47,427 nucleotides of DNA from assembly GCA_029982205.1 (NCBI GenBank), contig JARRCM010000006.1:73438-120864 (forward strand). The letters run 5' to 3'. This stretch comes from Thermosediminibacterales bacterium. GTDB taxonomy: Bacteria; Bacillota; Thermosediminibacteria; Koleobacterales; JARRCM01. The notes beneath the pieces were generated by a model that was given only the letters and a program-made list of their open reading frames with translations, searched no databases and was not told where the DNA came from. This document shows positions 2,549-46,924 of this stretch, in pieces; within the stretch, counting starts at the first letter, position 1; the number at the start of each line of letters is the position of its first letter. Made by a program: the position numbers and the translations under genes.

Positions 2549-2776
2549 AATAATCCCCCTTTTTGCTGTCTATTGTTTTATATTCAATGCCATGTCTTGC
2601 TTTCCTTTTTATGGCCAAAATTTTTTTTGTATAGGCACAGGCACACAAATAGTAAACTGTTCGTTCCTTCTATTACAAGAAGCTCCCTAACTGAATTGGA
2701 CACTTATAGTCTTAACAAATATAACAAAAGAGTTAGGGGGCTATATAGATACGGTGATTAGAATTGCTGATTTATG
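2549..2776. other. intergenic region between amidohydrolase gene and CRISPR trailer
   Basis: No gene is supported here. It contains a weak minus-strand promoter candidate for the amidohydrolase gene (TTTACT, 17 bases, TATACA, roughly 2630-2658). It also contains a 12-bp inverted repeat with one mismatch (AGCTCCCTAACT at 2681-2692 against AGTTAGGGGGCT at 2731-2742). Array transcripts run leftward into this stretch, so the inverted repeat could end or trim the precursor crRNA, but no T-run follows it. Confidence 0.4.
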
Positions 2777-11508: not shown

Positions 11509-11601
11509 CGCATTTAAATTGCTGTAATACTAAGTATTCCAGCACTGTAAAAATTGTTTTTTGCGTCAAACTTTCGGTTTTGTTTTCTACAGTCATATAT
11601 A
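11509..11601 (-). promoter_or_regulatory. CRISPR leader with candidate promoter
   Basis: The 93-bp AT-rich gap between the cas2 stop and the first (newest) repeat is the leader. On the minus strand it holds a promoter-like pair, TTTACA (11546-11551) and TATTAC (11524-11529) with a 16-bp spacer, which would start transcription just before the first repeat. An imperfect 23-bp palindrome (11521-11543, arms AATACT/AGTATT and GCTG/CAGC) overlaps the -10 element. Confidence 0.65.
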
Positions 11602-11883
11602 TTATATAAAATTATCAGTTGGATCAGGTGTATCTGTAAAAATATCACGTTGTATCTTACTCCCCTCGCTTAGAGTATAAATTATAACAAAATCCCGTTT
11701 CATATCAACACTAGACTTCAAATCTCTTTTTAAAAGCGCTACTTTCCCTTCTGACAAATCTCCTTCAAATACCGATTTTTGAACATGGGTCAAATATTTT
11801 CGACATATTTTCATAGTTTTAACCAGCCGTTTCCTGCCCCTCTTATCCTCAGTATTAATATCGTATACAAGTATAACTCTTAT
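11602..11883 (-). CDS. cas2: Cas2, with an apparent ATA (AUA) start codon
   Basis: Cas2 forms the spacer-integration complex with Cas1. The frame encodes 93 residues, the normal family length, beginning RVILVYDINTEDK, which contains the first beta strand and its conserved Asp, and ending DPTDNFI. No ATG, GTG or TTG exists in frame before the ATG at 11814. Starting there would remove 23 residues including that strand and Asp. The codon at the expected initiator position (11881-11883) is ATA, preceded by GGTGG at a suitable distance, and a stop lies six codons upstream of it. AUA initiation, or an ATG-to-ATA change or error, must be assumed. It follows cas1 by one base and is the last gene before the array. 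Confidence 0.85.
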   Translation of the reverse strand: MRVILVYDINTEDKRGRKRLVKTMKICRKYLTHVQKSVFEGDLSEGKVALLKRDLKSSVDMKRDFVIIYTLSEGSKIQRDIFTDTPDPTDNFI

Positions 11884-12867: not shown

Positions 12868-13404
12868 TTATACATAACAAAAATCATAATAGGCACATTT
12901 TTTACAGAATTTTTTGTTGAGTTTTGCTGGTGGGCACATTTCCTGCAAAATGTTATTAATATCCACTAAAGCTTTTCCCAACAAGTCTTTATCTTCATTT
13001 GTAAGTTTAACATCTATTTTTCTCATAGTGGTAGGATAGTGGATTACACCAGCAAAACAGTTCACACCTCGGTTTTGAAGAACGTGAATGTAGTATTTTA
13101 ATTGCCATATATGGGCCTCTTCAAATTTTTTACTCTTCTTTACTTCGTGGACATATACCTCATCCCCATACTTAAAAAAATCAATTTTGACATTGTCGAA
13201 ATCGAGGTCACGGCTGCTTTCACGTTTAAACCTCGTTTCATGCAGTATTCTGCCTTTGATAACATCTGCATTACCTGATACATTTTCTAGGTTCAAACCC
13301 TTTGCATGCAGCCATAGCTTGCGTCGGCAAATAAAATAGTAGGAAACAAGTGTTCCAGTTATTTTTATCCATTCTACCTCTACCACATTAGCATTACTCA
13401 TCAT
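12868..13404 (-). CDS. cas4: Cas4 RecB-like Fe-S nuclease
   Basis: Cas4 trims prespacers and helps choose them by PAM together with Cas1-Cas2. This 178-residue protein has the expected order: the first cluster cysteine in YFICRRKLW (about residue 26), GRILHE with the nuclease His/Glu (about 51-56), the acidic-Lys motif in VHEVKKSKK (about 84-92), the QLKYY helix, and a C-terminal cysteine cluster (CPPAKLNKKFCKKCAYYDFC). All four Fe-S cysteines are present. Its start overlaps the end of cas3 by 11 bases, suggesting translational coupling. Two adjacent ATG codons can serve as start. Confidence 0.95.
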   Translation of the reverse strand: MMSNANVVEVEWIKITGTLVSYYFICRRKLWLHAKGLNLENVSGNADVIKGRILHETRFKRESSRDLDFDNVKIDFFKYGDEVYVHEVKKSKKFEEAHIWQLKYYIHVLQNRGVNCFAGVIHYPTTMRKIDVKLTNEDKDLLGKALVDINNILQEMCPPAKLNKKFCKKCAYYDFCYV

Positions 13405-16138
13405 AGATCAAACCTTTTTCATTCTCGTAAGGAATATTGACTACATAAATACCCGCCAACCAGCGCCGAAGTTTGTTCTGAACCTTATTATGAATATCGG
13501 CACAATTAATAAGAGAAATAATCTTACTGACATCAACAGGTAATGAATCTTCTTTTTGAATCACTTTTCTCCATGGACAATCAACAGTATATTTATATAA
13601 TATTTTATCAGCAAATTCCATATAAGTTATATTTCCACAACAATTCCTCACCCAATCAGCAACTTCTCTGCAAAAATCATCTTCCATAACAGCAGGTACT
13701 ATAGTAACATTTCTTACTTCTCTAAAAATATTTTGCGCATCTTTTTTAGATTCTGAACAGTAGCCATTGTCAAGAATATCTAAAGTTTCATCATATATAT
13801 TCAGATAACTGCCTAAATAAACAGGGAAACCTTCTTCTTTTTTTTGTGCATCATAAAGCAATTGGTAACATACATCCACCCACTGCAATTTCTCTTTCTC
13901 AGTAACGGCAAACTCACAATTGTATTTACTGATTAGTTCGTTTAGGGATTTGATAAGTTTTTCATTATTGCGTTTCTTGCTTCCTGAAACAAGAAAACAT
14001 TTTTTCCATTCTTCTTTTTTAAGAAGAGATATCATATTTTCCTTTATAACTTCCTCTACTTCTCTACTTCCCATGGCAAGAAGAATTACCAGTGAAAGCA
14101 TCGTCAAATCAAAATCATACACAGCACTGCTGCTAGAACTTCTTATAGTTCCAATCCCCGGAGCAAGCCCCTTTCTGCTACCCGTTTTTACTTTTTGAAC
14201 CATTATCACTACATTTGCATTGGAAGGAGCATTGTTCCCTTTACTGCGAGCATATCTTCTATATACCCGACCCATTCGCTGGATAAGGCTGTCTGCTGGA
14301 GCTGCATCCGTAAACAATATATCTGCATCCAGGTCAAGAGAAGCTTCCACCACCTGGGTAGAAACCACTATACATCCTTTTTCATACCGTTTTTTCTGAT
14401 TAGGCATATATTGATAAACTTGGCTTTCCAGCTCTTTCCTCCTCTTTCGGGTAAATCTTGAGTGTAGCAACACAGTGTTAAGTTTATTTTCTCCATCCAT
14501 ATTCCTTATTTTTTCAAACACATCCATAGCCGTTCTTACTGTGTTGAGCACCACCAGCACCTTTTTCCCATTCTGGGCTGCTGCAATCATCTCAGGAATA
14601 AAAGGGTCATAGCTGCCGTCGTGCATGCCCAACCTTACCCTATGCCTGGTTGAATCAGCTAACTCTTCAAACTCGGGCTCATTCAACAAGTTTATAACCT
14701 GGTTATCGGAAATCCCCGTACGATTCATAACCTCTTTCTTAATAAAGACTGGTAAGGTAGCTGTCATAAGTAAAGTTCTACCGCCTAAAAGAGCAGTTTG
14801 TTGTATAAGATGAGTAACAATAGCTGCTGCTCTAGGGTCATATGCTTGGACCTCATCTATTACCAAACAACTGTTCATAAGCGATGCAAAAATTCGTTCA
14901 TAACCCGGGTATCGTAAAACTGCAGGAGCAATCTGGTCAGCAGTACATACTATATAGGGGTTTGCCATATGGCGCGCAAATTCAATAGCCAGTCTCAGCT
15001 CACCTTCATAATCTGGATTATCCTTAGTTTGAAGAGTTTCATCTGTATTTTCCCCTTTTTTCATTCTAAGACTGTACATTTCCAAAGCAGCATCTCCGTG
15101 AAACAGAGCAACTTTTTTGCTCATACCCTCCTTAATTTCTTCAAAAAACTTACAGGTGCGGCTCCAGATGCCATTAACAGCTGCCCTCATAGGAAGAACT
15201 ATAAAATTTTTCTTTTCTGCTCCCCACAAGTAAGCAAACTCTGTTTTCCCTGCTCCTGTCGGAGCTATGAGAATAAGATTTTCCCCTTGCAAATCTTTTT
15301 TCCGTCTAAAAAACTTCTTCTGCCAGAAGGAGTTAGAACCGAACTTTTCCTCCATAGCTTCTTCTAAAAGACCAAAATCCAAGTATTCAGAAATTTCAAT
15401 TTCCTGTAGTGCCACCTTATTATAGCTGTCCTCGACATATGAAGCAAAATGATCTGCCCGTATAAGGTTACCGGCAACAAATATCCGCATCTTCTCATAA
15501 GTCTCTTTAGTCTCTTTTTTATCTGACATTACCTTTATCCTGGACGGCAAAAATTTCATCGTATATGGCGGCAGAATAAGACCAGAAGCTCCAATATCAT
15601 TGTAACTGAGATATTCTACATATAAATCGTTTAGACCGATAGCTTCTGAATTTAAGCTGTACTTTTTGGCAACTTTTTTCAAAGAACTGTAAAGTATGTC
15701 AGACAACTTATACCATTCAGACTTGTTTTCCATTATGTTATTAGCTATGTTTTTAATATATGTACTACGGCTTCCCAAAATCAAATCTGGAAAGTATTCA
15801 CGCCAGTGATGAAAAGCCACAGCAGAAAGAACAATGCTTTTTAGTTCTTCATTATCGCTGTGAAAATTAATAAATTCAGGTTTTATAAAAAACAGCGAAA
15901 AAAGGCTGTGAGGAATATCTTCGCTTTTTTTGAAACCGTGAAATTTTAACTTTTTTTGAAAAACGGGATTTACCTTTCCTACATCATGGAGAAGGGCAGC
16001 ATACCTTAACGCTATCCACCATGTTTCAGGGAAAACATCTCGTTTTGCCTTTTTTAAGGCTTCTATACACTGCAGAACATGGTCAATATGTTCGCTTAGT
16101 GTGGTGCCGTTGCTTTTGGCCAGTATGTTTTGCGCCAT
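13394..16138 (-). CDS. cas3: Cas3 HD nuclease-helicase
   Basis: Cas3 is recruited by Cascade after R-loop formation, then unwinds and shreds target DNA. The 914-residue protein has an N-terminal HD domain (LLHDVGK, His51-Asp52; IPHSLF, His77; AFHHW, His110-His111), followed by an SF2 helicase. Helicase motifs visible are Walker A APTGAGKTE (about 292-300), VIDEVQ (about 426-431, the DExH position reading DEVQ), MTATLP (about 458-463), and motif VI QRMGRVYRR. The C-terminal ~220 residues are an accessory domain. HD and helicase in one chain suggests a complete interference effector. It starts 2 bases after cas5 ends and overlaps cas4. Confidence 0.96.
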   Translation of the reverse strand: MAQNILAKSNGTTLSEHIDHVLQCIEALKKAKRDVFPETWWIALRYAALLHDVGKVNPVFQKKLKFHGFKKSEDIPHSLFSLFFIKPEFINFHSDNEELKSIVLSAVAFHHWREYFPDLILGSRSTYIKNIANNIMENKSEWYKLSDILYSSLKKVAKKYSLNSEAIGLNDLYVEYLSYNDIGASGLILPPYTMKFLPSRIKVMSDKKETKETYEKMRIFVAGNLIRADHFASYVEDSYNKVALQEIEISEYLDFGLLEEAMEEKFGSNSFWQKKFFRRKKDLQGENLILIAPTGAGKTEFAYLWGAEKKNFIVLPMRAAVNGIWSRTCKFFEEIKEGMSKKVALFHGDAALEMYSLRMKKGENTDETLQTKDNPDYEGELRLAIEFARHMANPYIVCTADQIAPAVLRYPGYERIFASLMNSCLVIDEVQAYDPRAAAIVTHLIQQTALLGGRTLLMTATLPVFIKKEVMNRTGISDNQVINLLNEPEFEELADSTRHRVRLGMHDGSYDPFIPEMIAAAQNGKKVLVVLNTVRTAMDVFEKIRNMDGENKLNTVLLHSRFTRKRRKELESQVYQYMPNQKKRYEKGCIVVSTQVVEASLDLDADILFTDAAPADSLIQRMGRVYRRYARSKGNNAPSNANVVIMVQKVKTGSRKGLAPGIGTIRSSSSSAVYDFDLTMLSLVILLAMGSREVEEVIKENMISLLKKEEWKKCFLVSGSKKRNNEKLIKSLNELISKYNCEFAVTEKEKLQWVDVCYQLLYDAQKKEEGFPVYLGSYLNIYDETLDILDNGYCSESKKDAQNIFREVRNVTIVPAVMEDDFCREVADWVRNCCGNITYMEFADKILYKYTVDCPWRKVIQKEDSLPVDVSKIISLINCADIHNKVQNKLRRWLAGIYVVNIPYENEKGLIYDE

Positions 16139-24803: not shown

Positions 24804-26561
24804 TTACAATCTTTCTGGAACACCCTCTGTTGACCATCCTCTTAAACTATAATAATCTGATAACATTGTTTCCAATTGTTCTCTTGTAATAACCTTGCTT
24901 TTAGAACCTATAGGCTCTTCGAAAAATCTTTCAGGCAGGGTATCATCTTTTTTAGTAATGCCTTCTCTTATGTTAAATATCCGTGTGGCATCCACTATGT
25001 TTGACGCTATTTTTCTAAGCTCTTCTGTGTTTAATTTTAATCCCGTCGTAGCTTGAATTATCGTAGAAAGGTCTTCCCATAACACTATATCTCTATAAAA
25101 CCGGCATAAAATTAGTGCATCGTACAAAGCCAGCCTATCTTCATATTCTATAAAGAGTTTTGCTTTTCCTTCCGTTGTATCAGGGTCTATTATCCCTGCT
25201 AATTCCGGTTTGTAAAAGGTTGATCTCAAATGACACGCTCCTCTGTCTGAGGTAGCATAAGCTAATCCCATCCCTTTCAGTATTCTTGGATCATATCCTG
25301 CTGGTTCCAAACCCTTTACATGTATAGCTATATTTTCTAAACCCAGCTGTTTGCTTGCCGTTTTAATGCCTTCGGCTAATACTGCTCCGGCACCTCTCTT
25401 ATAAACGATATCTTCAATGAGTCTAGCTATTTTATCTACCTGACCATAATCTATATCCAAATCAAGCTTCCCGGCCTTTGATGCTTCTATTGCAAATGCT
25501 ACCATATTACCTGTTGTTATTGTATCTATGCCAAACCTGTCACAGAGGTCATTAAGATAGGCTATTGCTTTTATGTCATCTATGCAGCATAACCCACCGA
25601 AGGAATATATTGTTTCATATTCAGGGCCTTCAATAGTTAACCCTTTATATGGCCCTTCTTTGATTTTACTTAACTTACCACAAGCAAAGAAACACGGTGG
25701 ACATGCTCTAGGGGTTACTTCCATTTCTCGCTGCATTTTTTCTGCACTTATATTTTCCCATGTATCCAGGCTACCTTTATGCCAGTATTGAGTAGGAAAC
25801 CCTTCAACTTTATTCATTATTGCCACAAGCATCGGTGTTCCTGTATTTTTATATGCCTTAGCACCCGGATCATTTTTTCCTCTTTTCACCAAATCCTTCA
25901 CATAGCTATCTAATAAATCTTGATCAGCCAGTTCACACTTAGAATTACCGTGAAATACTATTGCCTTTAAATTCTTTTTGCCCATAACGGTTCCTACTCC
26001 TGTTCGCCCGGCTGATCTCCAGTAATTATTTTCTATGCAAGCATATCTTACCAGATTTTCTCCTGCCGGGCCTATTACTACAGCCTGGGCGCCTTTTTTC
26101 GCTACCTCTGCTAATACTGAATCTTCCGTTTCATAGGTGTCTTTCCCCCACAAATGAGATGCATCATGAAATTCTACCCTTTCATCAGATATCTCCAAAT
26201 ACACTTTCTCTTTTGAAATCCCTTCAATAACTATAGCGTCATAACCGGTCTTTTTAAGAGCAGGAGCTACATTGCCTCCCGAATAGGATTCAGAGTAAAT
26301 TCCAGTTAGAGGAGATTTTGTGAAAACTCCATATCTGCTTGATCCCATCATTTTGGTATCTGCTATAGGGCCGGTGGTAAATATTAGCTTGTTATCTTCA
26401 GACATAGGACAAACACCTTTGGGAATTTCTTTTAAAAGCAAATAACTCCCAAGGCCTTTTCCACCTAAATATTTTTTCAAAATTTCATCGGCTATCTCTT
26501 CAACATGATAGGTTTTATTTGTAAGATTTATCTTTAGCAGCCTATTATAAAATCCATACAT
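24804..26561 (-). CDS. aor: aldehyde:ferredoxin oxidoreductase (tungsten-bis-pterin type)
   Basis: The enzyme interconverts aldehydes and carboxylic acids with ferredoxin, using a tungsten (or molybdenum) bis-pterin and one [4Fe-4S] cluster. The 585-residue protein has the normal family length. It has YLGGKGLGSYLL near the start, TGPIADTKMMGSSRYGVFTKSP in domain 1, the cysteine cluster RACPPCFFACGK (CxxCxxxC), EGPEYETIYSFGGLC, and a late cysteine in YDALILCRF that completes the cluster. The ATG at 26561 has GGAGG 11 bases upstream. It is the last gene of adh-permease-aor, so aldehyde from the dehydrogenase, or acid reduced by this enzyme, probably links the two. The substrate is unknown. Confidence 0.92.
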   Translation of the reverse strand: MYGFYNRLLKINLTNKTYHVEEIADEILKKYLGGKGLGSYLLLKEIPKGVCPMSEDNKLIFTTGPIADTKMMGSSRYGVFTKSPLTGIYSESYSGGNVAPALKKTGYDAIVIEGISKEKVYLEISDERVEFHDASHLWGKDTYETEDSVLAEVAKKGAQAVVIGPAGENLVRYACIENNYWRSAGRTGVGTVMGKKNLKAIVFHGNSKCELADQDLLDSYVKDLVKRGKNDPGAKAYKNTGTPMLVAIMNKVEGFPTQYWHKGSLDTWENISAEKMQREMEVTPRACPPCFFACGKLSKIKEGPYKGLTIEGPEYETIYSFGGLCCIDDIKAIAYLNDLCDRFGIDTITTGNMVAFAIEASKAGKLDLDIDYGQVDKIARLIEDIVYKRGAGAVLAEGIKTASKQLGLENIAIHVKGLEPAGYDPRILKGMGLAYATSDRGACHLRSTFYKPELAGIIDPDTTEGKAKLFIEYEDRLALYDALILCRFYRDIVLWEDLSTIIQATTGLKLNTEELRKIASNIVDATRIFNIREGITKKDDTLPERFFEEPIGSKSKVITREQLETMLSDYYSLRGWSTEGVPERL

Positions 26562-26590
26562 TGTCTTTAACCCTCCTCTCAAAAATCAGT

Positions 26591-28144: not shown

Positions 28145-29302
28145 TTACCATGCATTAGTATAAATCTGCGTAATATCTTCAAGGGTTAAAACTCTTGGGT
28201 TGTTAGAAAGCAATCGGGTAACCTTTACCCCGGCCTCAGCGAGCTTTGGTATTGCAGCTTCAGGTATGTCTACCTCTCTTAATTTTGTTGGAACCCCGAT
28301 GTCTTCAGCTAAGGCAATCATGGCATCTATTGCTTTTTGAGCAGCCTCTCTAATAGATAAACCTTCAATGTTTTCTCCCATCGCTTCGGCAATTTTGGCA
28401 AACTTCTCCATACGGCTGACCACATTATATTCCATCACATATCTCAGCATTAAAGTATTGGCCATTCCATGCGGGATATGGAACTGACCACCCAGAGGGT
28501 ATGCAAGTGCATGAACCGCCCCTACACCGGCGTTTGCAAAGGCAACACCAGCCATAAGACTTCCCAATGACATGTTATATCGGGCTTCTATATTTTCTCC
28601 ATCGGCAACTGCCGTCCTGAGGCTTCCGGAAATTAATTTAATAGCTTCAAGAGATATGCACTCTGTAAATTTATTGGCCTTTTTAGCTATATAAGACTCT
28701 ATAGCATGGATAAGTGCATCCATACCGGTATTTGCCGTTATTTTAGGCGGAACTGTAATAGTCAAATTTGGATCCACTATAGCAACATCTGCATAAAGAT
28801 AAGGACTTACTACGCCTTTCTTTAATTCTTCTTTCACATCTGTTAATATTGCTATTGGAGTTACTTCTGAACCCGTGCCTGAAGTTGTAGGTAACATAAT
28901 TGTTGGTAAGCCGGGTTTTTCAACTAAATTTGTCCCAACATATTTATCTATAGGGCCTCCATTTGTCACCAATATTGATACTGCTTTTGTTGCATCTATA
29001 GAACTTCCACCGCCAAGACCAATCAACAAATTATAGCCATCCTGTTTTACTGCTTCTGCAATATCTTCAACTGTATCTATTGGTGGTTCCGGAATAACTT
29101 TATCAAAATAACCAACCTCAAAGCCTTCTTTTTCAAGAATTCCTTTGACTTTTTCTAATATCCCCGCTTTAGCAATTCCTTCATCGGTAATTATAAATAC
29201 TTTTTTTCCCCCTAGCTTTCTAGCCTCACTACCCAATTTTTTTAATGCTCCTACTCCCATAATAATAGAACCTGCTGTTGAAAAATTAAATATGCCATTC
29301 AC
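28145..29302 (-). CDS. iron-dependent (group III) alcohol dehydrogenase
   Basis: This NAD(P)-linked, iron-dependent dehydrogenase of 385 residues carries the family signatures in order: KVFIITDEGIAKAGI, the dinucleotide loop GGGSSIDATKA (about 97-107), PTTSGTGSEVTPIAIL (about 138-153), and metal ligands in TGMDALIHAIESY and GAVHALAYPLGGQFHIPHG. The start is a GTG at 29302 with GGAGG 11 bases upstream. It is the first gene of the adh-permease-aor unit. A candidate sigma-54 promoter lies 60-80 bases upstream, and the likely activator is the next gene on the same strand. It probably supplies or consumes the aldehyde handled by the oxidoreductase; its chain-length preference is unknown. Confidence 0.9.
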   Translation of the reverse strand: MNGIFNFSTAGSIIMGVGALKKLGSEARKLGGKKVFIITDEGIAKAGILEKVKGILEKEGFEVGYFDKVIPEPPIDTVEDIAEAVKQDGYNLLIGLGGGSSIDATKAVSILVTNGGPIDKYVGTNLVEKPGLPTIMLPTTSGTGSEVTPIAILTDVKEELKKGVVSPYLYADVAIVDPNLTITVPPKITANTGMDALIHAIESYIAKKANKFTECISLEAIKLISGSLRTAVADGENIEARYNMSLGSLMAGVAFANAGVGAVHALAYPLGGQFHIPHGMANTLMLRYVMEYNVVSRMEKFAKIAEAMGENIEGLSIREAAQKAIDAMIALAEDIGVPTKLREVDIPEAAIPKLAEAGVKVTRLLSNNPRVLTLEDITQIYTNAW

Positions 29303-29577: not shown

Positions 29578-31311
29578 TTAAATGTTGTATTTCCGCTTCT
29601 TTCTTATAACTGTCGTGCGATGAACACCCAATGCTTCTGCTACTTTTTTTAAACTTTTATATTTTTTTATTGCTTTTTCAATAAGTTGTTTTTCCAGTTT
29701 GCTGATTGCATCATCCAAAGGAATAATGTCTTTTATAAACACATCAGTTCTTTTGTTTTTGAAGTTGTCTTTTAAATAATTAGGTAAATGTTCGATATTA
29801 ATATAATCATCTTCAGCTACTACCACCAATCTTTCAATTATATTTTCCAATTCTCTAACGTTACCGGGCCAGTCATAATCAATGAGCTGATTAATAACTT
29901 CTGAACTAATTGTTTTTTTCAAACCATATTTTTTACTAAATTTCTTCAAAAAATGATATATAAGGGGAACAATATCTTCTTTTCGTTCTCTTAAAGGAGG
30001 AACACAAATCGGAACTGCATTTAATCTATAAAACAAATCCTCTCGGAATTTGCCTTGTTCTACCAACTGTTTCAAATCTTTATTTGTCGAAGCTAAAATC
30101 CTAACATCAATTTTTCTCTCTTTTATTCCACCTACTCTAATTATTTCTCTTTCTTGAATTGCCCTCAAAAGTTTTACCTGCAATTTAAAAGATAAATCAG
30201 CAATTTCATCCAAAAGAAGTGTTCCGCCTTCGGCGACTTCAAACAAACCTGGTTTTCCTTCTTTTTTTGCACCAGAAAATGCTCCTCCTTCATATCCAAA
30301 AAGTTCTGATTCTAACAGGTTTTCTGGAATTGCTCCACAATTTATTTTTATGAATGGTCCTTTACATCTATCACTTTCTTTATGTATCAATTTCGCTATC
30401 AGTTCTTTACCAACCCCGGATTCCCCCGTAATCAGAACATTTGAATCAACTCTTGAAACACGTAAAGCAAGAATAATTATCTGTCTCATGCTGTTACTTT
30501 TTGTTATTATATCTTCCATCTCTATTTGCTGTAGTCGCAGCTCAGATAATTGGTCATAATATTTTTTTGTCAGCTTCTTGGTTTTTTCCAGTTCATCTTT
30601 CAATCGGTTCAATTCTGTTATATCTCTAACATTAGTTACAACTCGGGTTATTTTCCCATTCTCATCAAAAATTGGATTCCCTGTAACAATAACATCTTTC
30701 TTTCCTTTTATAGTCTGCATTATCGTCATCGGTTTCTTCTTTTCAAGCACCAAAAGGGTTACAGATTGTGAATAAAAACCTGCTTTTTCCAGATCACGCA
30801 TATGCCTGCCTATTACTTCTTCGCCCATAACGCCTGTTATTCTTTCATAAGCCGAATTTACCCTTAGTGTAGTTCCGTTTCCATCAGTAACATATATTCC
30901 ATCATATGATGACTCAATTATAGCATTTAATTCTGCATTAAGCTCTTTAACACTGTTTAATTCTTTTGAAATGGTTTCCAATTCTGAAATATCCTGAAAA
31001 ACAGCAACAGCTCCTACGACTTCTCCATTTTTCAAAATAGGGGTTCTATTTGTAATAACTGTTCGATTGCCTATCAAGAGCTTTTGACTAAAATTGCTTT
31101 CTCCTGTCTGTAGCACATCAATAAGAAGGGTGTTTGGAATGACACAAGAAATATGTTTCCCTATTGCATCAACAGCCTTTTTACCTATAACTCTTTCAGC
31201 GGCTGGATTTAATATAGTTATATAACCATCTTTATCGACAGCCACTATTCCGTTATGGGTGGAATTCAAAATGGTATTAAGTTCAATTGATAAATTGTCA
31301 ACGCTTTTCAT
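29578..31311 (-). CDS. PAS-PAS sigma-54-dependent activator
   Basis: The 577-residue bacterial enhancer-binding protein has two PAS domains (about residues 10-110, including VDKDGYITILNPAAERVIG, and 120-235, including GIYVTDGNGTTLRVNSAYERI). A short coiled coil follows (about 235-265). The AAA+ domain has Walker A TGESGVGKE, a GAFSGA loop in place of GAFTGA, Walker B TLLLDEIADL, and the arginine-finger region FREDLFYRLN. A Fis-type helix-turn-helix ends the protein (LKKVAEALGVHRTTVIRKKRKY). It probably senses a ligand or redox state by PAS and activates the adjacent adh-permease-aor unit from the site near 29370. An upstream ATG at 31335 would add eight residues and lacks a separate ribosome site. 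Confidence 0.92.
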   Translation of the reverse strand: MKSVDNLSIELNTILNSTHNGIVAVDKDGYITILNPAAERVIGKKAVDAIGKHISCVIPNTLLIDVLQTGESNFSQKLLIGNRTVITNRTPILKNGEVVGAVAVFQDISELETISKELNSVKELNAELNAIIESSYDGIYVTDGNGTTLRVNSAYERITGVMGEEVIGRHMRDLEKAGFYSQSVTLLVLEKKKPMTIMQTIKGKKDVIVTGNPIFDENGKITRVVTNVRDITELNRLKDELEKTKKLTKKYYDQLSELRLQQIEMEDIITKSNSMRQIIILALRVSRVDSNVLITGESGVGKELIAKLIHKESDRCKGPFIKINCGAIPENLLESELFGYEGGAFSGAKKEGKPGLFEVAEGGTLLLDEIADLSFKLQVKLLRAIQEREIIRVGGIKERKIDVRILASTNKDLKQLVEQGKFREDLFYRLNAVPICVPPLRERKEDIVPLIYHFLKKFSKKYGLKKTISSEVINQLIDYDWPGNVRELENIIERLVVVAEDDYINIEHLPNYLKDNFKNKRTDVFIKDIIPLDDAISKLEKQLIEKAIKKYKSLKKVAEALGVHRTTVIRKKRKYNI

Positions 31312-31462
31312 TGTTATAAAAATTCTCCCTCCCATCCCAGATATGTTACTCTTTGTAAAATTTTATAATTTTCACGATTTGTTGTTTTTTTGCAATATTC
31401 TCTCATGATAATAATATATCATATGTTAAAAATGATTTCCATTCACTTATATTTAGGTCTTC

Positions 31463-35803: not shown

Positions 35804-36661
35804 TTATAACATATTCTGGACCTTTTGCCATAGATTTTTTATTTCAGATGCTGTTTGGCTTGTTTCTTCATATTCAACTATGGAAAGACCTTTAATCAGC
35901 GCATCTATTACTTTTCTATCAAACGGAATTTTGCTTATAACATCTACTCCTATACTTTTACAATAGTTTTCAATTTCTAAAGTCTTCCGCTCATCGAGGT
36001 CGTATTTGTTTATACACACGGCGGTCTTTACATCGAAATGGTTTGCGAGTTTTATTATCCTTTCAAGGTCGTGTTTCCCGGCTACCGTTGGTTCTGTAAC
36101 TATCAAAACCATATCAACCCCGGTAATTGACGATATAACAGGGCAGCCTATTCCCGGAGGCCCATCTATAATTATTAAAGATTTGTTCTGCTCTTGAGCG
36201 ATTTTCTGGGCCGCCTTTCTAACTTCAGTTACCAGTTTACCGGAGTTTTCTTCAGCTATTCCAAGTTTTGCATGAACCATAGGGCCATGTTTAGTTTCAG
36301 ATACAAACCAGTGGCCTGAAAGGCTGTCTTCCATAGTTATGGCGTTTTGAGGACAAATGCGGTAGCAAACACCACAGCCTTCACAATAAATATGGTTAAT
36401 TTTGAAATCTTCTATAGCATCAAACCTGCATGCTTCTATGCATTTACCACATCGAACACATTTATCTTCGTGAATTTCAGCCACTTTTGATGCATAGAAC
36501 TGGTGTGTCTCTTTAACATCGGGCTGGAGAAGCAGGTGCATATCAGCAGCATCGACATCACAATCTGCAATAACTTTGTTATCTGCTAAAGCAGCAAAAG
36601 CTGCCGTTATAGATGTCTTCCCTGTCCCTCCCTTGCCGCTTATTATTAAGAGTTCCTTCAC
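35804..36661 (-). CDS. MinD/Mrp-type ATPase with inserted 2x[4Fe-4S] ferredoxin domain (second of pair)
   Basis: The 285-residue protein has the deviant Walker A GKGGTGKTS near residue 9, DCDVDAADMH, then a bacterial ferredoxin insert (CVRCGKCIEACRF and CEGCGVCYRICP, about residues 68-105), and IIDGPPGIGCPV as the switch II region with a cysteine. Such ATPases form pairs in anaerobes and are thought to assemble or carry Fe-S clusters; the targets are unknown. Its start overlaps the stop of its partner by 4 bases, suggesting coupled synthesis of a heterodimer. Confidence 0.9.
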   Translation of the reverse strand: MKELLIISGKGGTGKTSITAAFAALADNKVIADCDVDAADMHLLLQPDVKETHQFYASKVAEIHEDKCVRCGKCIEACRFDAIEDFKINHIYCEGCGVCYRICPQNAITMEDSLSGHWFVSETKHGPMVHAKLGIAEENSGKLVTEVRKAAQKIAQEQNKSLIIIDGPPGIGCPVISSITGVDMVLIVTEPTVAGKHDLERIIKLANHFDVKTAVCINKYDLDERKTLEIENYCKSIGVDVISKIPFDRKVIDALIKGLSIVEYEETSQTASEIKNLWQKVQNML

Positions 36662-37506
36662 TTCTCCACCCTCCTCTCAATCTCTTTCCAGAGGTCGTTA
36701 AATTTTTTATACAACTCCGGGAACTCCTCTACAACACAACCACCACGTGCGTAGCACTCAGCATATCTGCGGTCAAATGGTATTTTTAAAAGGATCGGGA
36801 TTCCTTCACTGTCACAATATTTTTCAACTTTGTCATCACCCAAACCAGAACGATTTATAATTACACCAAACGGGATTCCCATTTCTCTAACCATTCCCAC
36901 TGCTAATTTAAGGTCATTCAATCCGAAGGGGGTTGGCTCGGTAACCAACAAGCAGTAGTCACTTCTTGAAAGTGAAGCTATAACTGGACATGAAGTTCCC
37001 GGAGGCGCATCAATAATTACTACGCCGTCGTTTTTTGCTTTTTTCTTTACCGCCTTAATCACAGGTGGAGCTAAAGGTGAACCTATGTTTAGTTTTCCGT
37101 GGACAAAACTAAAACCTTCTGAACATCTTCCTGACTCTACAACTCCAATTTGTTTAGGTTTATCTGTTAAAGCACCTTTAGGGCAAAACTTAACACATCC
37201 TCCACAACCGTGGCATAGTTCTTCAAACACCAGCACATTTCCGGCCATAACGGTTATTGCACTGAATTCACATACTTCTTTACAGTAGCCGCAGCCATCA
37301 CACAACTCTTCATTAACAGAAGGAACCGGCAGAGTTACCGGTTCGATAACGTTTAGTTCGGGATTGAGAAACAGGTGAGCGTTTGGTTCTTCAACATCAC
37401 AGTCTAGAAATTCTACTGATATTTTATCTTTTACAACTAAAGCCAGATTTGTAGCTACAGTTGTCTTTCCGGTGCCGCCTTTACCGCTGGCAACTGTTAT
37501 TATCAT
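36658..37506 (-). CDS. MinD/Mrp-type ATPase with inserted 2x[4Fe-4S] ferredoxin domain (first of pair)
   Basis: A 282-residue paralogue of the next gene: GKGGTGKTT at about residue 8, FLDCDVEEPNAHLF, ferredoxin insert CDGCGYCKEVCEF and CHGCGGCVKFCP (about 69-110), and IIDAPPGTSCPV. All eight ferredoxin cysteines are present. Each of the two proteins retains its own Walker motifs and clusters, so both halves of a dimer could bind ATP. It lies about 50 bases after a NifX-like gene in the same operon. A role in Fe-S cofactor handling is inferred from family and neighbours. Confidence 0.9.
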   Translation of the reverse strand: MIITVASGKGGTGKTTVATNLALVVKDKISVEFLDCDVEEPNAHLFLNPELNVIEPVTLPVPSVNEELCDGCGYCKEVCEFSAITVMAGNVLVFEELCHGCGGCVKFCPKGALTDKPKQIGVVESGRCSEGFSFVHGKLNIGSPLAPPVIKAVKKKAKNDGVVIIDAPPGTSCPVIASLSRSDYCLLVTEPTPFGLNDLKLAVGMVREMGIPFGVIINRSGLGDDKVEKYCDSEGIPILLKIPFDRRYAECYARGGCVVEEFPELYKKFNDLWKEIERRVEK

Positions 37507-37555
37507 CTTCTCATCACCGCCAGTTTATAGTATAAATGCTTCGCTAGAATCGCAT

Positions 37556-37888
37556 TTAATGTTCACATGTGCTTTCCCCGACTTCAAGCTGACCCTTCAA
37601 ATACGCATCTATTACTTCATCTACCAATCCCCTGGCACCGACAACTGTTTTTATGTTTTGCTGTTCAAAAAGCCCCTGTGCCCTCGGGCCCATACCTCCT
37701 GCTATTATACAGTTAACGCCGCGTTCAGCAAGGTAGCGGGGTAGAAATCCGGGCTCATGTCCCGGGTTTGGAATAACGATTTTGCTCTCAATTTTTCCAT
37801 CATTTACCGTAAAAATAGTGTATTCAGGGCAGCGCCCGAAATGTTCTGCAACCCTAGCACCATCAGTAGCAACCGCTATTTTCATCAA
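37556..37888 (-). CDS. NifX/NifB-C-terminal-like cofactor-binding protein
   Basis: A 110-residue single-domain protein of the dinitrogenase iron-molybdenum cofactor family: KIAVATDGARVAEHFGRCPEYTIF, FLPRYLAERGVNCIIAGGMGPRAQGLF. Such proteins bind Fe-S or FeMo-type cofactors. No nitrogenase genes are visible, and relatives commonly accompany MinD-type ATPases in non-fixing anaerobes. AGGAGG lies 10 bases before the start. The C-terminus has an extra Cys-Glu-His that could bind metal. Confidence 0.9.
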   Translation of the reverse strand: MMKIAVATDGARVAEHFGRCPEYTIFTVNDGKIESKIVIPNPGHEPGFLPRYLAERGVNCIIAGGMGPRAQGLFEQQNIKTVVGARGLVDEVIDAYLKGQLEVGESTCEH

Positions 37889-37898
37889 TAAAACCTCC

Positions 37899-38264
37899 TT
37901 ATCTCAAACCAAAATGGGAATTTACTGTTGCACTTGAAATGGTTTTCAGTTCCCCCTGTTTATACATCTCGAAAGCCTCTGATACTTTTTTCCCAGAATC
38001 GGTTATATATATTTTTATGCCTGCTGCTTGAAGCCCTCTAACTGCATTTGGGCCCACATTGCCTGTAATTACTGCTTTAACACCTTTGTCAGCTAAAAAC
38101 TGTGCAGTTTGAACACCTGCTCCTGAAGCAGGAAGGTTTGAATTTTCAACAGCTTCAAAATCACCGCTGTCTTCATTTATAAAAATAAAATACCGGCATC
38201 TGCCAAAACGAGGGTCAATCAGTGATTCCATATCTTTCCCTTGAGATGTAATTGCAATAGTCAT
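37899..38264 (-). CDS. NifX-like cofactor-binding protein
   Basis: A 121-residue member of the same family as its downstream neighbour: DPRFGRCRYFIFI, GAGVQTAQFLADKGVKAVITGNVGPNAVRGLQAAGIKIY. The two are paralogues but differ at the ends, so they may bind different cofactors or partners. GGAGG lies 9 bases before the ATG. It stands between the broken DUF5320 gene and the second NifX-like gene. Confidence 0.9.
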   Translation of the reverse strand: MTIAITSQGKDMESLIDPRFGRCRYFIFINEDSGDFEAVENSNLPASGAGVQTAQFLADKGVKAVITGNVGPNAVRGLQAAGIKIYITDSGKKVSEAFEMYKQGELKTISSATVNSHFGLR

Positions 38265-38316
38265 TATCTAACCTCCAGATATAATTTATTTGTTTAAATA
38301 TGTAAATATCAGGGTA

Positions 38317-38355
38317 AGGTGGAAGCAAAAAACACAGCTTTTTTTACTTCCACCT
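38317..38355 (-). terminator. long hairpin between DUF5320 and nifX-like genes
   Basis: AGGTGGAAG pairs with CTTCCACCT, and the stem extends through A/T tracts to about 16 bp with one wobble and a 7-base loop. No T-run follows on the minus strand, so it may be a partial terminator or an mRNA-stabilising structure between the first and second gene. Confidence 0.45.
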
Positions 38356-38365
38356 CAAAAAATGT

Positions 38366-38807
38366 TTATTCTTTTTCTTCTTTGTCATCTTTTGAGCTTT
38401 CCAGTTCTTTCAGTCTTTCCTTGATTGCTTTAAGTTCCTCTTCAAGGTAATCGGCTTCTTCTTTTAGCATCTCAGCTTCCTGTTGTTCTGAATATTGAGG
38501 AGCAACCGGTTCAACCCAACGAGGACCATAACCGAAACGAGCCCAACCTGGAACACCTGTCATATAATACATGTTTCTCCATCCTCTGCCGCGGCCCCAC
38601 CAGCCCCGGCCTCTGCCAAAACCAAATCCTGGGCCTGGATTCATGTAGCCTGGCACAGGAAATCCAGCACAGTAACCCATCCCTCTACCTGTCATTGGGC
38701 CAAGACCTCTTGGTGTAGCCTGGCACAGGAAATCCAGCACAGTAACCCATCCCTCTACCTGTCATTGGGCCAAGACCTCTTGGTCCGGTTCCATCACCAC
38801 GTGGCAT
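38366..38807 (-). pseudogene. DUF5320 protein gene, frameshifted by a 70-bp tandem duplication
   Basis: The gene starts at an ATG at 38807 with AGGAGGG six bases upstream and begins MPRGDGTGPRGLGPMTGRGMGYCAGF, the DUF5320 signature. An exact 70-bp tandem duplication (38645-38784) shifts the frame, giving a stop after about 40 residues. Removing one copy restores a 123-residue protein with a glycine/aromatic-rich middle (GRGRGWWGRGRGW) and a C-terminal coiled coil (EAEMLKEEADYLEEELKAIKERLKEL) ending in charged residues. The open frame reported from a GTG at 38740 is an artefact of the duplication. The family is small, of unknown function, and typical beside NifX/MinD genes. Confidence 0.8.
38645..38784. 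repeat. exact 70-bp tandem duplication
   Basis: Copies 38645-38714 and 38715-38784 are identical, each beginning GTAGCCTGGCACAGG and ending CAAGACCTCTTGGT on the plus strand. The unit length is not a multiple of three and lies inside the DUF5320 reading frame. Confidence 0.97.
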
Positions 38808-41464: not shown

Positions 41465-42874
41465 ATGATTGAAAAAGATTTTATAAATGATGCAGAGATT
41501 TGGGATATTCTGGAAAATGCTAAAAATCCTGAACCCCAGGAAATAAGAGAGATTTTTGCAAAGTCCCTTGAAAAAGTCCGTCTTGAACCTGAAGAGACTG
41601 CAAAACTTCTTCAACTAGAAGACCCGGAACTCATTGAGGAAATGTATTCCCTTGCCCGGAAAATCAAGGAAGATGTTTATGGTAACCGGATTGTATTCTT
41701 TGCTCCTCTGTATATTGGCAACAAGTGTGTTAACAACTGCTTATACTGCGGTTTTAGAAAAGACAATCATCTGACGAAAAGAAGGACTCTAACAATGGAA
41801 GAACTAAAAGAAGAAGTAAGGATTTTAGAAAGCCACGGGCATAAGAGGCTTATCCTTGTTTATGGTGAACATCCCGATTATGACGCCGATTTTATGGTTA
41901 AAACAATCGAAACCGTATATAACACTAAGTTCGGAAGAGGAGAAATACGGCGGGTTAATATAAACGCCGCACCGATGACTGTTGAAGACTATAAAAAGTT
42001 AAAAGAAATAGGAATCGGTACATTTCAGATATTTCAGGAAACCTACCACCATAAAACCTATGAAAGGCTTCATCCAAAAGGGACGTTAAAACACGACTAC
42101 CTGTGGAGATTGTACGGCCTTGACAGAGCCATGGAAGCGGGGATTGATGATGTTGGAATCGGAGCTCTGTTCGGCCTGTATGACTGGAAGTTTGAAGTTA
42201 TGGGACTTTTATACCACACGATTCATTTAGAAGAAACTTTCGGTGGTATAGGCCCTCATACAATATCCTTCCCGAGGTTGGAACCAGCTCTTAACACACC
42301 TTATGTTGAAAATTCTTCATATAAGGTCAGTGATGAAGATTTCAAGAAATTAGTTGCTATAATAAGGCTTTCAGTTCCTTATACAGGCATGATTTTAACA
42401 GCAAGAGAAAGCCCGGAAATACGCAGAGAAGTCATACCCCTGGGTGTATCACAGATCGATGCGGGTTCTCGAATCGGAATAGGAGGGTATAAAGAAGCAG
42501 AGCGTGGATATATTCCTGAAAAAGAACAGTTTCACCTGGGTGATATAAGGTCTCTGGATGAAGTAATCAGAGAAATATGTGAAATGGGCTGCATCCCTTC
42601 TTTCTGTACAGCAGGCTACAGAGCCGGCAGAACCGGAGACCATTTCATGGCCCTAGCAAAACCAGGTTTTGTTCATAAATTCTGCATGCCGAACGCCATA
42701 CTAACATTTAAAGAATATCTTCTGGATTATGCATCTCCTGAAACTAGAAAAGTTGGTGAAATCGCAATCAATAAAGAATTAGAAAAGTTTGAACGAACTG
42801 ATCCGGAAAGAAAACAACTTATTCTGAATAAACTTGCGCTTATTGAAGAAGGTCAGAGAGATGTCTACGTGTAA
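41465..42874 (+). CDS. hydG: HydG-family radical SAM enzyme lacking one auxiliary-cluster cysteine
   Basis: Canonical HydG splits tyrosine to make the CO and CN ligands of the [FeFe]-hydrogenase H-cluster. This 469-residue protein has the radical SAM motif CVNNCLYC (Cys88, Cys92, Cys95), the ThiH/HydG barrel, GPHTISFPRLEPA, and a HydG-type C-terminal domain ending with FKEYLLDYASPETRK. In the C-terminal CX2CX22C motif, Cys381 and Cys407 are present but the middle position is Gly384 (GGC at 42614-42616), and the usual FCHPNA reads FCMPNA. It is therefore either a divergent HydG or a paralogue with changed chemistry. No hydE, hydF or hydrogenase genes are in view. It is preceded by a structured leader and overlaps the next gene. 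Confidence 0.88.
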   Translation: MIEKDFINDAEIWDILENAKNPEPQEIREIFAKSLEKVRLEPEETAKLLQLEDPELIEEMYSLARKIKEDVYGNRIVFFAPLYIGNKCVNNCLYCGFRKDNHLTKRRTLTMEELKEEVRILESHGHKRLILVYGEHPDYDADFMVKTIETVYNTKFGRGEIRRVNINAAPMTVEDYKKLKEIGIGTFQIFQETYHHKTYERLHPKGTLKHDYLWRLYGLDRAMEAGIDDVGIGALFGLYDWKFEVMGLLYHTIHLEETFGGIGPHTISFPRLEPALNTPYVENSSYKVSDEDFKKLVAIIRLSVPYTGMILTARESPEIRREVIPLGVSQIDAGSRIGIGGYKEAERGYIPEKEQFHLGDIRSLDEVIREICEMGCIPSFCTAGYRAGRTGDHFMALAKPGFVHKFCMPNAILTFKEYLLDYASPETRKVGEIAINKELEKFERTDPERKQLILNKLALIEEGQRDVYV

Positions 42875-43196
42875 TAATTCTATGTTTAAACATTGGCTAA
42901 AAAACACATTAAATAAAATTTTGCAGAAAGAAAGCCTTTTGGAAACATTAGAATGCCTTTCCGAGGAAATTACCCAAAAATATCCCAACATCAAAATCTG
43001 GTTTACAAGAAAATACGGTAAAAGGTTGTCTTACATTACAGGCAATGGCAGAGAACATTTCCTCCCGCCTGTTAAAATAGATATTTCAAAAAACTATTCT
43101 GCATTTATCGAAAATCTGTCAGTTGTTCCAGAGAAAGAAGCTGAAATTTTGGTTTCACTCTTTAAAGTAGTTTTAGGTCTGTATGATGCTGAATAA
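42861..43196 (+). CDS. hypothetical protein coupled to the hydG-like gene
   Basis: From the ATG at 42861 (AAGG upstream) this encodes 111 residues, overlapping the hydG-like stop by 14 bases, so the two are probably translationally coupled. I recognise no family. There is an N-terminal basic amphipathic helix (FKHWLKNTLNKILQKESLL), a mixed alpha/beta middle (KYPNIKIWFTRKYGKRLSYITG), and a C-terminal helix (EKEAEILVSLFKVVLGLYDAE). The order is vaguely GAF-like. There is no signal peptide or membrane helix. A partner or regulator of the HydG-like enzyme is an inference from position. A strong terminator follows. Confidence 0.7.
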   Translation: MSTCNNSMFKHWLKNTLNKILQKESLLETLECLSEEITQKYPNIKIWFTRKYGKRLSYITGNGREHFLPPVKIDISKNYSAFIENLSVVPEKEAEILVSLFKVVLGLYDAE

Positions 43197-43632: not shown

Positions 43633-44565
43633 CTACATATATTTTCTGAAAAAAGTAATAAACTGAATAACCACTGGGCCTAATATCACAATAAATACCG
43701 TTGGGAAAATGAAAAATACCAGAGGAAACAGTATCTTTACCGGCATTTTCATGGCCCTTTCCTCCGCCATCTGTCTCCTTTTGTTGCGCATTTGTTCAGA
43801 TTGTATTTTTAAAACCTTGCTAATACTCACTCCTAACTGGTCAGCTTGAATAATTGCTGCAGTAAAGGTTTTCATATCATTTATATTCACCCTCCTGGAA
43901 AGAGCCCTTAAAGCCTCCGCCCTTGATTTGCCAACACGTACCTCTTTTAAATAATTGCCAAACTCTTCTCCTATCGGCCCCTTAAATTTTTCACTAACCT
44001 TCTGAACAGCTCCATCAAATCCCAGCCCTGCTTCAACCGAAATACACAATAGGTCCAGCACATCAGGCAGTTTTTTCTCTATCTCATTCAGTCTTTTTTT
44101 TATCTTTCCCTTAAGCCTGACATCGGGAATAAAGAACCCTAAAACCATGGAAAAAGAAGCTCCGAAAAGTAAGAAAAGCGTTTTTTCTGCAGGAGGTTTG
44201 AATAGGGTTAAAAGAAGTATGTAAAAGAATAAAATAGAAAAAGACACCGTAGCCTTATAAAACATAAATACTACAGGGTCTGTGGAACAACCTGCTCTTT
44301 TTAACTGTTCTTCTAATTTATCTTTAACAGCTTTTGGAGCAGCCCAGTTTATTGCTTTTGTGATGCTGTGAATGAGGGGAATTAAAACTCTCTCTTTAAA
44401 GGGCCTTGATGTTTCTTCTTCATACAGTGTTTCAACAGAATAATCTTTATATCTTATTTCTTTTAACCTTTTTGCTATTCTTCTTTCTTCATCTGATGCA
44501 GTCAGGAAATAATAAGCAAATCCTGCCGAGGTTAAAAACACAAACAGTAAAAATATTTTTTTCAA
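43633..44565 (-). CDS. tadC: TadC-type inner-membrane platform protein (type II secretion F family)
   Basis: A 310-residue integral membrane protein with an N-terminal anchor (IFLLFVFLTSAGFAYYFL), a central hydrophobic pair (about 95-145), and a C-terminal membrane segment. The GspF/T2SSF cytoplasmic domain contains LPDVLDLLCISVEAGLGFDGAVQKVSEKFKGP and FTAAIIQADQLGVSISKVLKIQ. Together with TadB it forms the platform for Flp-pilus assembly. The start is probably TTG at 44565 with GAGGTG upstream. It lies 12 bases after tadB. Confidence 0.88.
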   Translation of the reverse strand: MKKIFLLFVFLTSAGFAYYFLTASDEERRIAKRLKEIRYKDYSVETLYEEETSRPFKERVLIPLIHSITKAINWAAPKAVKDKLEEQLKRAGCSTDPVVFMFYKATVSFSILFFYILLLTLFKPPAEKTLFLLFGASFSMVLGFFIPDVRLKGKIKKRLNEIEKKLPDVLDLLCISVEAGLGFDGAVQKVSEKFKGPIGEEFGNYLKEVRVGKSRAEALRALSRRVNINDMKTFTAAIIQADQLGVSISKVLKIQSEQMRNKRRQMAEERAMKMPVKILFPLVFFIFPTVFIVILGPVVIQFITFFRKYM

Positions 44566-44577
44566 TCCACAACACCT

Positions 44578-45576
44578 CTAATAATCTATATTTACAATCT
44601 TTCGTATTAATATAATTCCTAAGAGTTCCATTACCAAAGCTCCTGAAAGAAGCATCCAACCAATAGGATGTGTTATTAAAAGAGAAATGTAATCTGGTTT
44701 TATTAAATATATTATCAATCCTAAACCTATCGGCAGCAGGGAAATGATTATTCCTGAAATACGCCCTTGTGCAGTTAGAGTTCTTATTTCGCCCATGATT
44801 TTAATGCGGTTTCTAATGGTTTCATTGATATTATCCAAAATTTCCGATAGGTTGCCTCCTGTTTGCCTTTGAATGTGTATAGCCGTTACCACCAGGTCAA
44901 GGTCTGGGCTGTTAACCCTTTTCAGCATGTTGTTTAAAGCGTCTTCCATTGATATGTTTAACCGGCACTCTTTTAATACCTGATTGAATTCTCTAGAGAT
45001 GGGAGGCGGCAGTTCTTTTGATACTACATCAAACGCCTGAAGGAGAGAAAACCCTGACTTTAAAGCATTGGATATTAAATTCAAGGCATCGGGAAGCTGA
45101 TTGTTAAACTCCTTCAACTGAGCCTTCTGCTTCAAATTTAAGTAAAAACATGGAAACCAGATGCCAAACATCAGTAAAATGCCTCTGACGATCAGGTTTT
45201 GTGTTATTAAGATTCCAATAAAAAACAAACAAGCAATAAACAGCACCACAATGAACATAAATTCAGATGGTTGTAAAGGAATATCAGCTTTTTTCAACTC
45301 CAAAACCAGTTTAGCTCTGAACTTCCTTTCTGCAAGGGCTTTATCGAAAAACTCGAGAATCTTTTCCCTTAAACTTAAATATTTCTTTTTTGATTCTTGA
45401 TCTGCAACACCTTCAAAATCAACATCAATAAAGTTTTTCTGCCGGGTCGGCCTGTTTTTAACAATTTTTCTTAACCTGTCCTTGATTTTCTTTTTATTAA
45501 ACATCACAATAATATTTACATATAAATAGATAATAATCGTACCGATAAAAACCAATGATAACACAAACAGTTTCAT
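44578..45576 (-). CDS. tadB: TadB-type inner-membrane platform protein
   Basis: From the ATG at 45576 (GGGGTG upstream, just past the cpaF stop) it has 332 residues: an N-terminal membrane helix (LFVLSLVFIGTIIIYLYV), two central helices (about 95-140), the T2SSF domain with LPDALNLISNALKSGFSLLQAFDVVSKELP and VTAIHIQRQTGGNLSEILDNI, and C-terminal helices. It is the partner of TadC. A longer frame to 45639 lies inside cpaF and is not needed. Confidence 0.88.
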   Translation of the reverse strand: MKLFVLSLVFIGTIIIYLYVNIIVMFNKKKIKDRLRKIVKNRPTRQKNFIDVDFEGVADQESKKKYLSLREKILEFFDKALAERKFRAKLVLELKKADIPLQPSEFMFIVVLFIACLFFIGILITQNLIVRGILLMFGIWFPCFYLNLKQKAQLKEFNNQLPDALNLISNALKSGFSLLQAFDVVSKELPPPISREFNQVLKECRLNISMEDALNNMLKRVNSPDLDLVVTAIHIQRQTGGNLSEILDNINETIRNRIKIMGEIRTLTAQGRISGIIISLLPIGLGLIIYLIKPDYISLLITHPIGWMLLSGALVMELLGIILIRKIVNIDY

Positions 45577-45583
45577 TGTCTTT

Positions 45584-46924
45584 TCACCCCATAAAAATAT
45601 CAACAGGCAGTTCAATGCCCGAATGTTTGATATGCTCATAGCATATCGGTCTTATTCCTGTGCTTCTGAACTCGCCTTTAATCTTGCCGTCAATGGACGT
45701 GCCCTGCTGATAAAACTTGAATATATCCTGTAAAACTATCACTTCTCCTTCCATCCCCTGAACTTCAGTAATATGGGTTATCTTCCGGCTGCCATCTCTC
45801 AACCGCGATTGATGAATGATAATGTCAATAGCTGATGCTATCTGCTGCCTGATGGCCTTTATAGGAAGATCCATTCCCGCCATCATTACCATCGTTTCCA
45901 AACGGGATATAAGGTCACGGGGGTTGTTAGCATGAGCCGTCGTCAAACACCCGTCATGCCCTGTATTCATGGCCTGCAACATATCCAGTGCTTCACTGCC
46001 TCTAACTTCTCCCACTACGATTCTGTCAGGCCTCATTCTCAGCGAATTTTTTACAAGCTGGCGTATAGTAATCTCACCTTTGCCCTCTATATTTGCCGGC
46101 CGGGTTTCAAGAGAAACCACATGGTCCTGCATCAGCTGAAGTTCAGCAGCGTCTTCAATAGTTACTATCCTTTCATCATGAGGAATAAAGGAACTCAAGA
46201 TATTCAAGGTTGTTGTCTTACCGCTTCCGGTACCTCCTGAAACTATTATGTTTAATCTCGATTTTACACAAGCTTCAATGAATCTGGCCATGTCATCAGT
46301 TAAAGTTCCTAGGTTTATAATATCATCGATTTGGAGGGGAACCTTTGAAAATTTTCTTATGGTTACACAGGGCCCTTTAATTGCAAGAGGGGGAATTATG
46401 GCGTTTACCCTTGAACCATCAGGCAGCCTGGCATCAACCATAGGACAGCTTTCATCGATCCTCCGTCCTAAAGGAGTTACTATTTTTTCTATAAGGTGAT
46501 ATACTTCTTCGGCATTTCTAAACCGTATCTCGGTAAGTCTGAGTTTCCCTTTTGATTCTACGTAAACCTGATCTTCTGAGTTGATCATAATTTCGCTGAT
46601 ATCGGGATCATCTAAAAGCTTTTGTATAGGGCCAAATCCAATAATTTCAGAATATAAATCCTCAGCAATTTTTTCCCTTTCCAGCGGGGAAATGCCTTCT
46701 TCATCCCTTAATAATTCTTCAATTTTATCTTTAATTTTCTTTTTTTCGTCTTTTGTAAGGGTATCACTTTTCAAGAAAAGTTTTGCATCTATTTCGTTGA
46801 TAAGCCTCTGCTGTATTTTGTTTTTTAAATCACGGTTGGCGTCTTCAATTATAGGTTTGTTTAAACCTTCATTGCTTTTTGCAGTTTCCTTTTTAGCCCT
46901 AAGCCTTTGATAAAGAGTTGCCAT
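45584..46924 (-). CDS. cpaF: CpaF/TadA secretion ATPase
   Basis: The hexameric ATPase powering Flp/Tad pilus assembly. The 446-residue protein has a helical N-terminal part with charged coiled coil (about 30-85), IIGFGPIQKLLDDPDISEIMIN, and RIDESCPMVDARLPDGSRVNAIIPP. It then has Walker A SGGTGSGKTTTLN (about 229-241), the Asp box EDAAELQL, Walker B RPDRIVVGEVRGSEALDML, and the His box TGHDGCLTTAHAN. It lies 14 bases after the cpaE-like gene and 7 bases before tadB in one operon. Confidence 0.95.
   Translation of the reverse strand: MATLYQRLRAKKETAKSNEGLNKPIIEDANRDLKNKIQQRLINEIDAKLFLKSDTLTKDEKKKIKDKIEELLRDEEGISPLEREKIAEDLYSEIIGFGPIQKLLDDPDISEIMINSEDQVYVESKGKLRLTEIRFRNAEEVYHLIEKIVTPLGRRIDESCPMVDARLPDGSRVNAIIPPLAIKGPCVTIRKFSKVPLQIDDIINLGTLTDDMARFIEACVKSRLNIIVSGGTGSGKTTTLNILSSFIPHDERIVTIEDAAELQLMQDHVVSLETRPANIEGKGEITIRQLVKNSLRMRPDRIVVGEVRGSEALDMLQAMNTGHDGCLTTAHANNPRDLISRLETMVMMAGMDLPIKAIRQQIASAIDIIIHQSRLRDGSRKITHITEVQGMEGEVIVLQDIFKFYQQGTSIDGKIKGEFRSTGIRPICYEHIKHSGIELPVDIFMG

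Follow-up and report, generated by a model that had tools for sequence, protein, structure and literature searches.

The iron unit of [FeFe]-hydrogenases that carries CO and cyanide is a product of HydG, the reference enzyme for the biological building of Fe(CO)CN units. Mechanistic models of HydG assume that three cysteines hold its second cluster and that a crown of hydroxyl groups surrounds the tyrosine phenolate. In connection with the cluster, the C-terminal site of C. acetobutylicum HydG is described as essential, mutation of its motif having abolished maturation (King 2006, as reported in PMC9431212), and variability of the motif is on record (Duffus 2012, as cited in PMC9431212). The CX5CX19C form is already known, a 2022 survey having found HydG of C. 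autoethanogenum to carry C-x(5)-C-x(19)-C (PMC9431212). In connection with the tyrosine site, a structure of ThiH with tyrosine identified T299, S318, S321 and R306 as the phenolate-site residues, strictly conserved in HydG (PMC9046217). Lastly, S. wolfei HydE, HydF and HydG, together with a 348-bp ORF, have been co-expressed with Hyd1ABC in E. coli; the authors state that the maturases were necessary and give an NAD+ reduction activity of 94.5 U/mg for Hyd1ABC (Losey et al., 2017; PMC5626996).

The window analysed here is a stretch of 47,427 nucleotides from a Thermosediminibacterales bacterium (contig JARRCM010000006.1), in which a gene on the forward strand (41465–42874) encodes a HydG of 469 amino acids. 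In a profile search, it scored 522.8 bits against the HydG family TIGR03955, above the cut-off of 312.15, and its AlphaFold model (pLDDT 93.7) has T. italicus HydG as best PDB match (4wcx, TM 0.94–0.97). The radical SAM motif CX3CX2C is intact (C88, C92 and C95, 41726–41749), as is His265 of GPHTIS (42257–42259), a probable ligand of the dangler iron near the second cluster, by analogy with the T. italicus structure. The C-terminal motif reads FCTAGYRAGRTGDHFM...HKFCMPNA, that is, C381-T-A-G384-Y-R-A...C407. An earlier note on this DNA had pointed to exactly this arrangement and to the intact radical SAM cysteines, and direct reading bears it out: Cys381 (TGT, 42605–42607) and Cys407 (TGC, 42683–42685) keep the spacing of CX2CX22C, while the middle cysteine is replaced by Gly384 (GGC, 42614–42616). 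The canonical motif is thus broken, and because of the glycine we class the protein in a variant lineage descended from HydG and not as canonical HydG. Position 387, where many relatives have a cysteine, is alanine (42623–42625). Besides the fold and the radical SAM motif, the protein shares H265, C381, C407, R314, R320 and S335 with the T. italicus enzyme (4WCX), and differs from it by the lack of Cys384 and by Ala313 for Thr, Asp332 for Ser, Val132 for Glu and Arg215 for His.

Relatives were gathered from a genome collection, from 60 related genomes and by searching 399 genomes of the phylum for the motif pattern, giving a comparison set of 113 HydGs less than 97% identical. The pattern search found Gly384 together with Ala, Ser or Thr at 387 in 10 of the 399 genomes. 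In the comparison set, 55 proteins have Cys384, 46 have Cys387 (with Gly or Asp at 384) and 12 have neither, these being the window protein and 11 others with Gly384; C88, C92, C95, H265, C381 and C407 are invariant in all 113. No protein of the set has both Cys384 and Cys387. The raw table (0/55/46/12) gives a Fisher value of 8e-21 that ignores phylogeny, and since only 2–5 phylogenetically independent pairs exist, a tree-aware test cannot reach significance; we therefore dropped statistical proof of mutual exclusion, striking as the count is.

A tree built with the motif columns left out resolves two deep lineages. Lineage A (23 rows) includes T. italicus HydG and has Cys384 throughout. Lineage B (90 rows, SH-aLRT 100), to which the window protein belongs, is mixed at this position (Gly in 45, Cys in 32, Asp in 13), and 46 of its 58 proteins without Cys384 carry Cys387. 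The homologue search and tree that the earlier note had proposed thus show Gly384 to recur. The proteins with neither cysteine do not form a single clade (p-AU 0.002) and are polyphyletic, so this state arose more than once. Two pairs of Gly384 proteins gave dN 0.056/dS 0.41 and dN 0.027/dS 0.91, low ratios that place them under purifying selection. The window gene is, in other words, a real and widespread HydG variant without one cluster-binding cysteine thought essential, and the earlier note was right to regard it as a divergent enzyme, given that 12 of the 113 rows, which do not make up a single clade, have Gly384 and lack Cys387. One of its arguments did not hold, namely that FCMPNA would be a second, linked departure: the motif is present, yet residue 408 varies freely (T, Q, L, M, K, I, V, E or A in the 113 HydGs, with His elsewhere, as in L185, L187 and L189), and we rejected M408 as a linked change.

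The earlier note had also remarked that no hydE, hydF or hydrogenase gene lies nearby. This is correct for the window, but the rest of the genome (1.9 Mb, 86% complete) supplies all of them: it encodes HydE and HydF, both above cut-off, and [FeFe]-hydrogenase, with nine Fe_hyd_lg_C matches. The implied detachment from hydrogenase maturation consequently finds no support, all the more so as the Gly384 type stands in operons with HydA, HydE or HydF in other genomes. A second, canonical hydG, which the same note had thought worth looking for, was not found in this 86%-complete assembly; the window HydG is the single copy. Similarly, three genomes of the g9 genus (99% complete, one of them a single contig) have a Gly384/no-Cys387 protein as their only HydG, along with HydF and 3–4 hydrogenase-domain matches. 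In two further genomes (G115 and G240, 99–100% complete), the only HydG has Gly384 and no cysteine at 376, 387, 392 or 393, and the gene order is HydA-HydG-small gene-HydE; in G346, G367 and G407 it is HydG-small gene-HydF-HydE. Two other genomes with the Gly384/no-Cys387 type (G079 and G097) also have a second HydG with the cysteine. One genome carries both HydG lineages (L101 and G017:C78), with a HydE-like match near each, which suggests two parallel maturation sets.

As regards the rest of the window, a run on the reverse strand near hydG (35804–38740), comprising two paired MinD/ParA-type ATPases that carry 4Fe-4S insertions, together with a DUF5320 protein and a NifX-like Nitro_FeMo-Co protein, reads as a putative iron-sulfur or metal-cofactor handling cluster. 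Downstream, three genes on the reverse strand (43633–46924), an ATPase and two membrane proteins, appear Tad/Flp pilus-like as judged by sequence. A sigma-54 dependent regulator (29578–31335, reverse strand), close to PrdR but below the PrdR cut-off, adjoins an iron-type alcohol dehydrogenase gene (28145–29302), and an aldehyde ferredoxin oxidoreductase-like gene (24804–26582) lies near it. Farther away, a CRISPR array at about 2765–11700 has more than 120 repeats (GTTCAAATTCCTCTATGGTCAATGGTTAC) with a period of about 65 and is accompanied by a Cas3 gene (13394–16138, reverse strand). No RNA families were found in the window.

An experimental anchor comes from S. wolfei. The published cloning primers match the S. 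wolfei locus (L100) exactly and bound 2846 bp with HydG, the small ORF and HydE. The amplified HydG (SWOL_RS05190) reads FCTADYRC...C, that is, Asp384 and Cys387 in a CX5CX19C motif. The primer match, taken together with the active Hyd1ABC, means that a HydG lacking the middle cysteine of CX2CX22C contributes to successful maturation. The connection between motif and maturation is drawn in the present analysis, and covers Asp384/Cys387 without being proof for Gly384/Ala387; in the passages of Losey et al. (2017) consulted, we found no discussion of the motif (PMC5626996). Like the window protein, S. wolfei HydG belongs to lineage B, lacks Cys384, has Asp332 and Ala313 and is directly followed by a small gene; unlike it, it has Asp384 with Cys387 and adjoins hydE and hyd1ABC. 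The C. autoethanogenum protein (CLAU_RS03260) is also without the middle cysteine and has the shifted one (PMC9431212), which the window protein lacks.

The most plausible explanation, which we hold to be probable, is that the window protein is an active H-cluster maturase in which C381 and C407 hold the second cluster and the third ligand is relocated or non-protein. What is observed directly is the substitution and its recurrence, the presence of a sole copy, and the operonic links of same-type relatives to HydA, HydE or HydF; for the Gly384/no-Cys387 type we infer what clusters it has, which ligands hold them, its substrate and its activity as follows. An aromatic amino acid, probably tyrosine, would most likely be cleaved by radical SAM chemistry, and an Fe(CO)2CN unit would then most likely be built, HydG-like, on a C-terminal cluster held by the invariant C381 and C407, the third protein ligand having been moved or given up. 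For most of the relatives that lack Cys384, the probable third ligand is Cys387, three residues further along; in the window protein it may be Cys376 (42590–42592), or a non-protein or non-cysteine ligand. Against an active maturase count the loss of maturation in the C. acetobutylicum motif mutants, the fact that S. wolfei tests Asp384/Cys387 and not Gly384/Ala387, and the incompleteness of the window's own genome. We know of no biochemistry on a HydG lacking both C384 and C387.

Within the maturase explanation, it is possible, though we lean against it, that C376 replaces the lost cysteine (C376-X4-C381, CX4CX25C) so that the cluster keeps three cysteines. C376 is found in 5 of the 12 rows with neither cysteine, namely the window protein, the g9 genomes (L094/L096), L013 and L014. 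The same residue, however, also occurs beside C384 (L095, L012) and beside C387 (L016, L018), and it is missing from L053, L154, L159 and L160 as well as from L155–L157, which have C392 instead. With 7 of the 12 thus lacking C376, no single replacement ligand covers them all, and we rejected it as a universal one.

A further departure concerns the tyrosine site. Mapped through the 7pd1 alignment, T299, S318, S321 and R306 of TcThiH correspond to positions 313, 332, 335 and 320 of the window protein, where we find A313 (42401–42403), D332 (42458–42460), S335 and R320; two of the four reported residues are kept. Lineage A has T/S/S/R at 313/332/335/320 in 23 of 23 rows. In lineage B, residue 313 is Ala in 87 and Cys in 3 of the 90 proteins and never Thr, residue 332 is Asp in all 90, residue 320 is Arg in 89 (Lys in one), and residue 335 is Ser or Thr. 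Since the ThiH outgroups and C. hydrogenoformans HydG have Thr/Ser at the phenolate site, Asp332 is probably derived in lineage B, in a tree whose root is weakly resolved. Val in place of Glu132 (Glu in TiHydG) was considered as another mark of lineage B and discarded, as C. hydrogenoformans HydG, L183 and L192 also have Val.

An altered phenolate site means that tyrosine as the substrate is not assured. Tyrosine may still bind lineage-B HydG, either in its neutral phenol form or with Asp serving as base, given that R320 and S335, which set tyrosine lyases apart from NosL, are kept. A more far-reaching explanation, which we find unlikely, is that the chemistry of lineage B is altered at both sites: with Asp in place of the phenolate-binding Ser, tyrosine would bind as an uncharged phenol next to an internal base, or CO and CN- would come from a different amino acid, and the synthon would form on a two-cysteine cluster.

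We also consider it unlikely that the window protein retains only the lyase half of the reaction, yielding dehydroglycine and perhaps cyanide but no synthon, with CO or the iron unit coming from elsewhere. Canonical HydG does need its C-terminal cluster for CO formation (PMC3457958), and the window HydG misses one ligand of it. The invariance of C381, C407 and H265 would be unexpected, however, if the second site had been lost, and several near-complete genomes with hydrogenases have a protein of this type as their only HydG; such proteins also stand in operons with HydA, HydE or HydF. A ThiH-like enzyme of the thiazole pathway, not involved in hydrogenase maturation, is very improbable. The protein is homologous to ThiH (282 bits against TIGR02351) and shares with ThiH of Thermosinus carboxydivorans (7PD1) the tyrosine lyase core and the equivalents of R300 and R306, but this score is below the ThiH cut-off of 380, its score against HydG is far above the HydG cut-off, its C-terminal cluster domain is absent from ThiH, which keeps T299/S318, it groups with HydG in a ThiH-rooted tree, and hyd operons hold relatives of the same type. 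A sequencing error or a decaying gene, for which we found no supporting point, is refuted by the homologues, as Gly384 occurs in many independent genomes, the frame is intact and dN/dS is low.

The small, unannotated gene that recurs beside hydG is present in the window as well (42861–43196, forward strand, 111 amino acids), where it shares 14 bp with the 3' end of hydG. Its product matches no Pfam or NCBIfam family; the AlphaFold model (pLDDT 93.4) is a compact alpha-beta fold, weakly GAF-like, and Foldseek gave DosP (TM 0.72, E 2.9e-3). About half of the lineage-B loci have the companion directly 3' of hydG (e.g., L100, L053, L096), and SWOL_RS05185 is the S. wolfei homologue. Among judgeable loci, a homologue immediately follows HydG in 11 of 12 with neither cysteine, 27 of 44 with Cys387 and 10 of 31 lineage-B loci with Cys384, and in 0 of 21 of lineage A. 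Judged by its position, the companion may act together with HydG. Gly53 and Arg55 are nearly invariant, and there is no conserved cysteine, for which reason a cysteine of the companion was rejected as a ligand in trans.

In the literature searched we found no description of a HydG with neither cysteine, which is no proof that none exists; this form appears to be new, as do the companion gene and the change at the tyrosine site that runs through lineage B. Lineage B departs from the hydroxyl crown throughout and from the three-cysteine cluster in most of its members. Motif searches for HydG based on CX2CX22C will miss genuine maturases, and sole-copy variants in hydrogenase-bearing organisms are natural tests of the cluster ligands and of phenolate binding.
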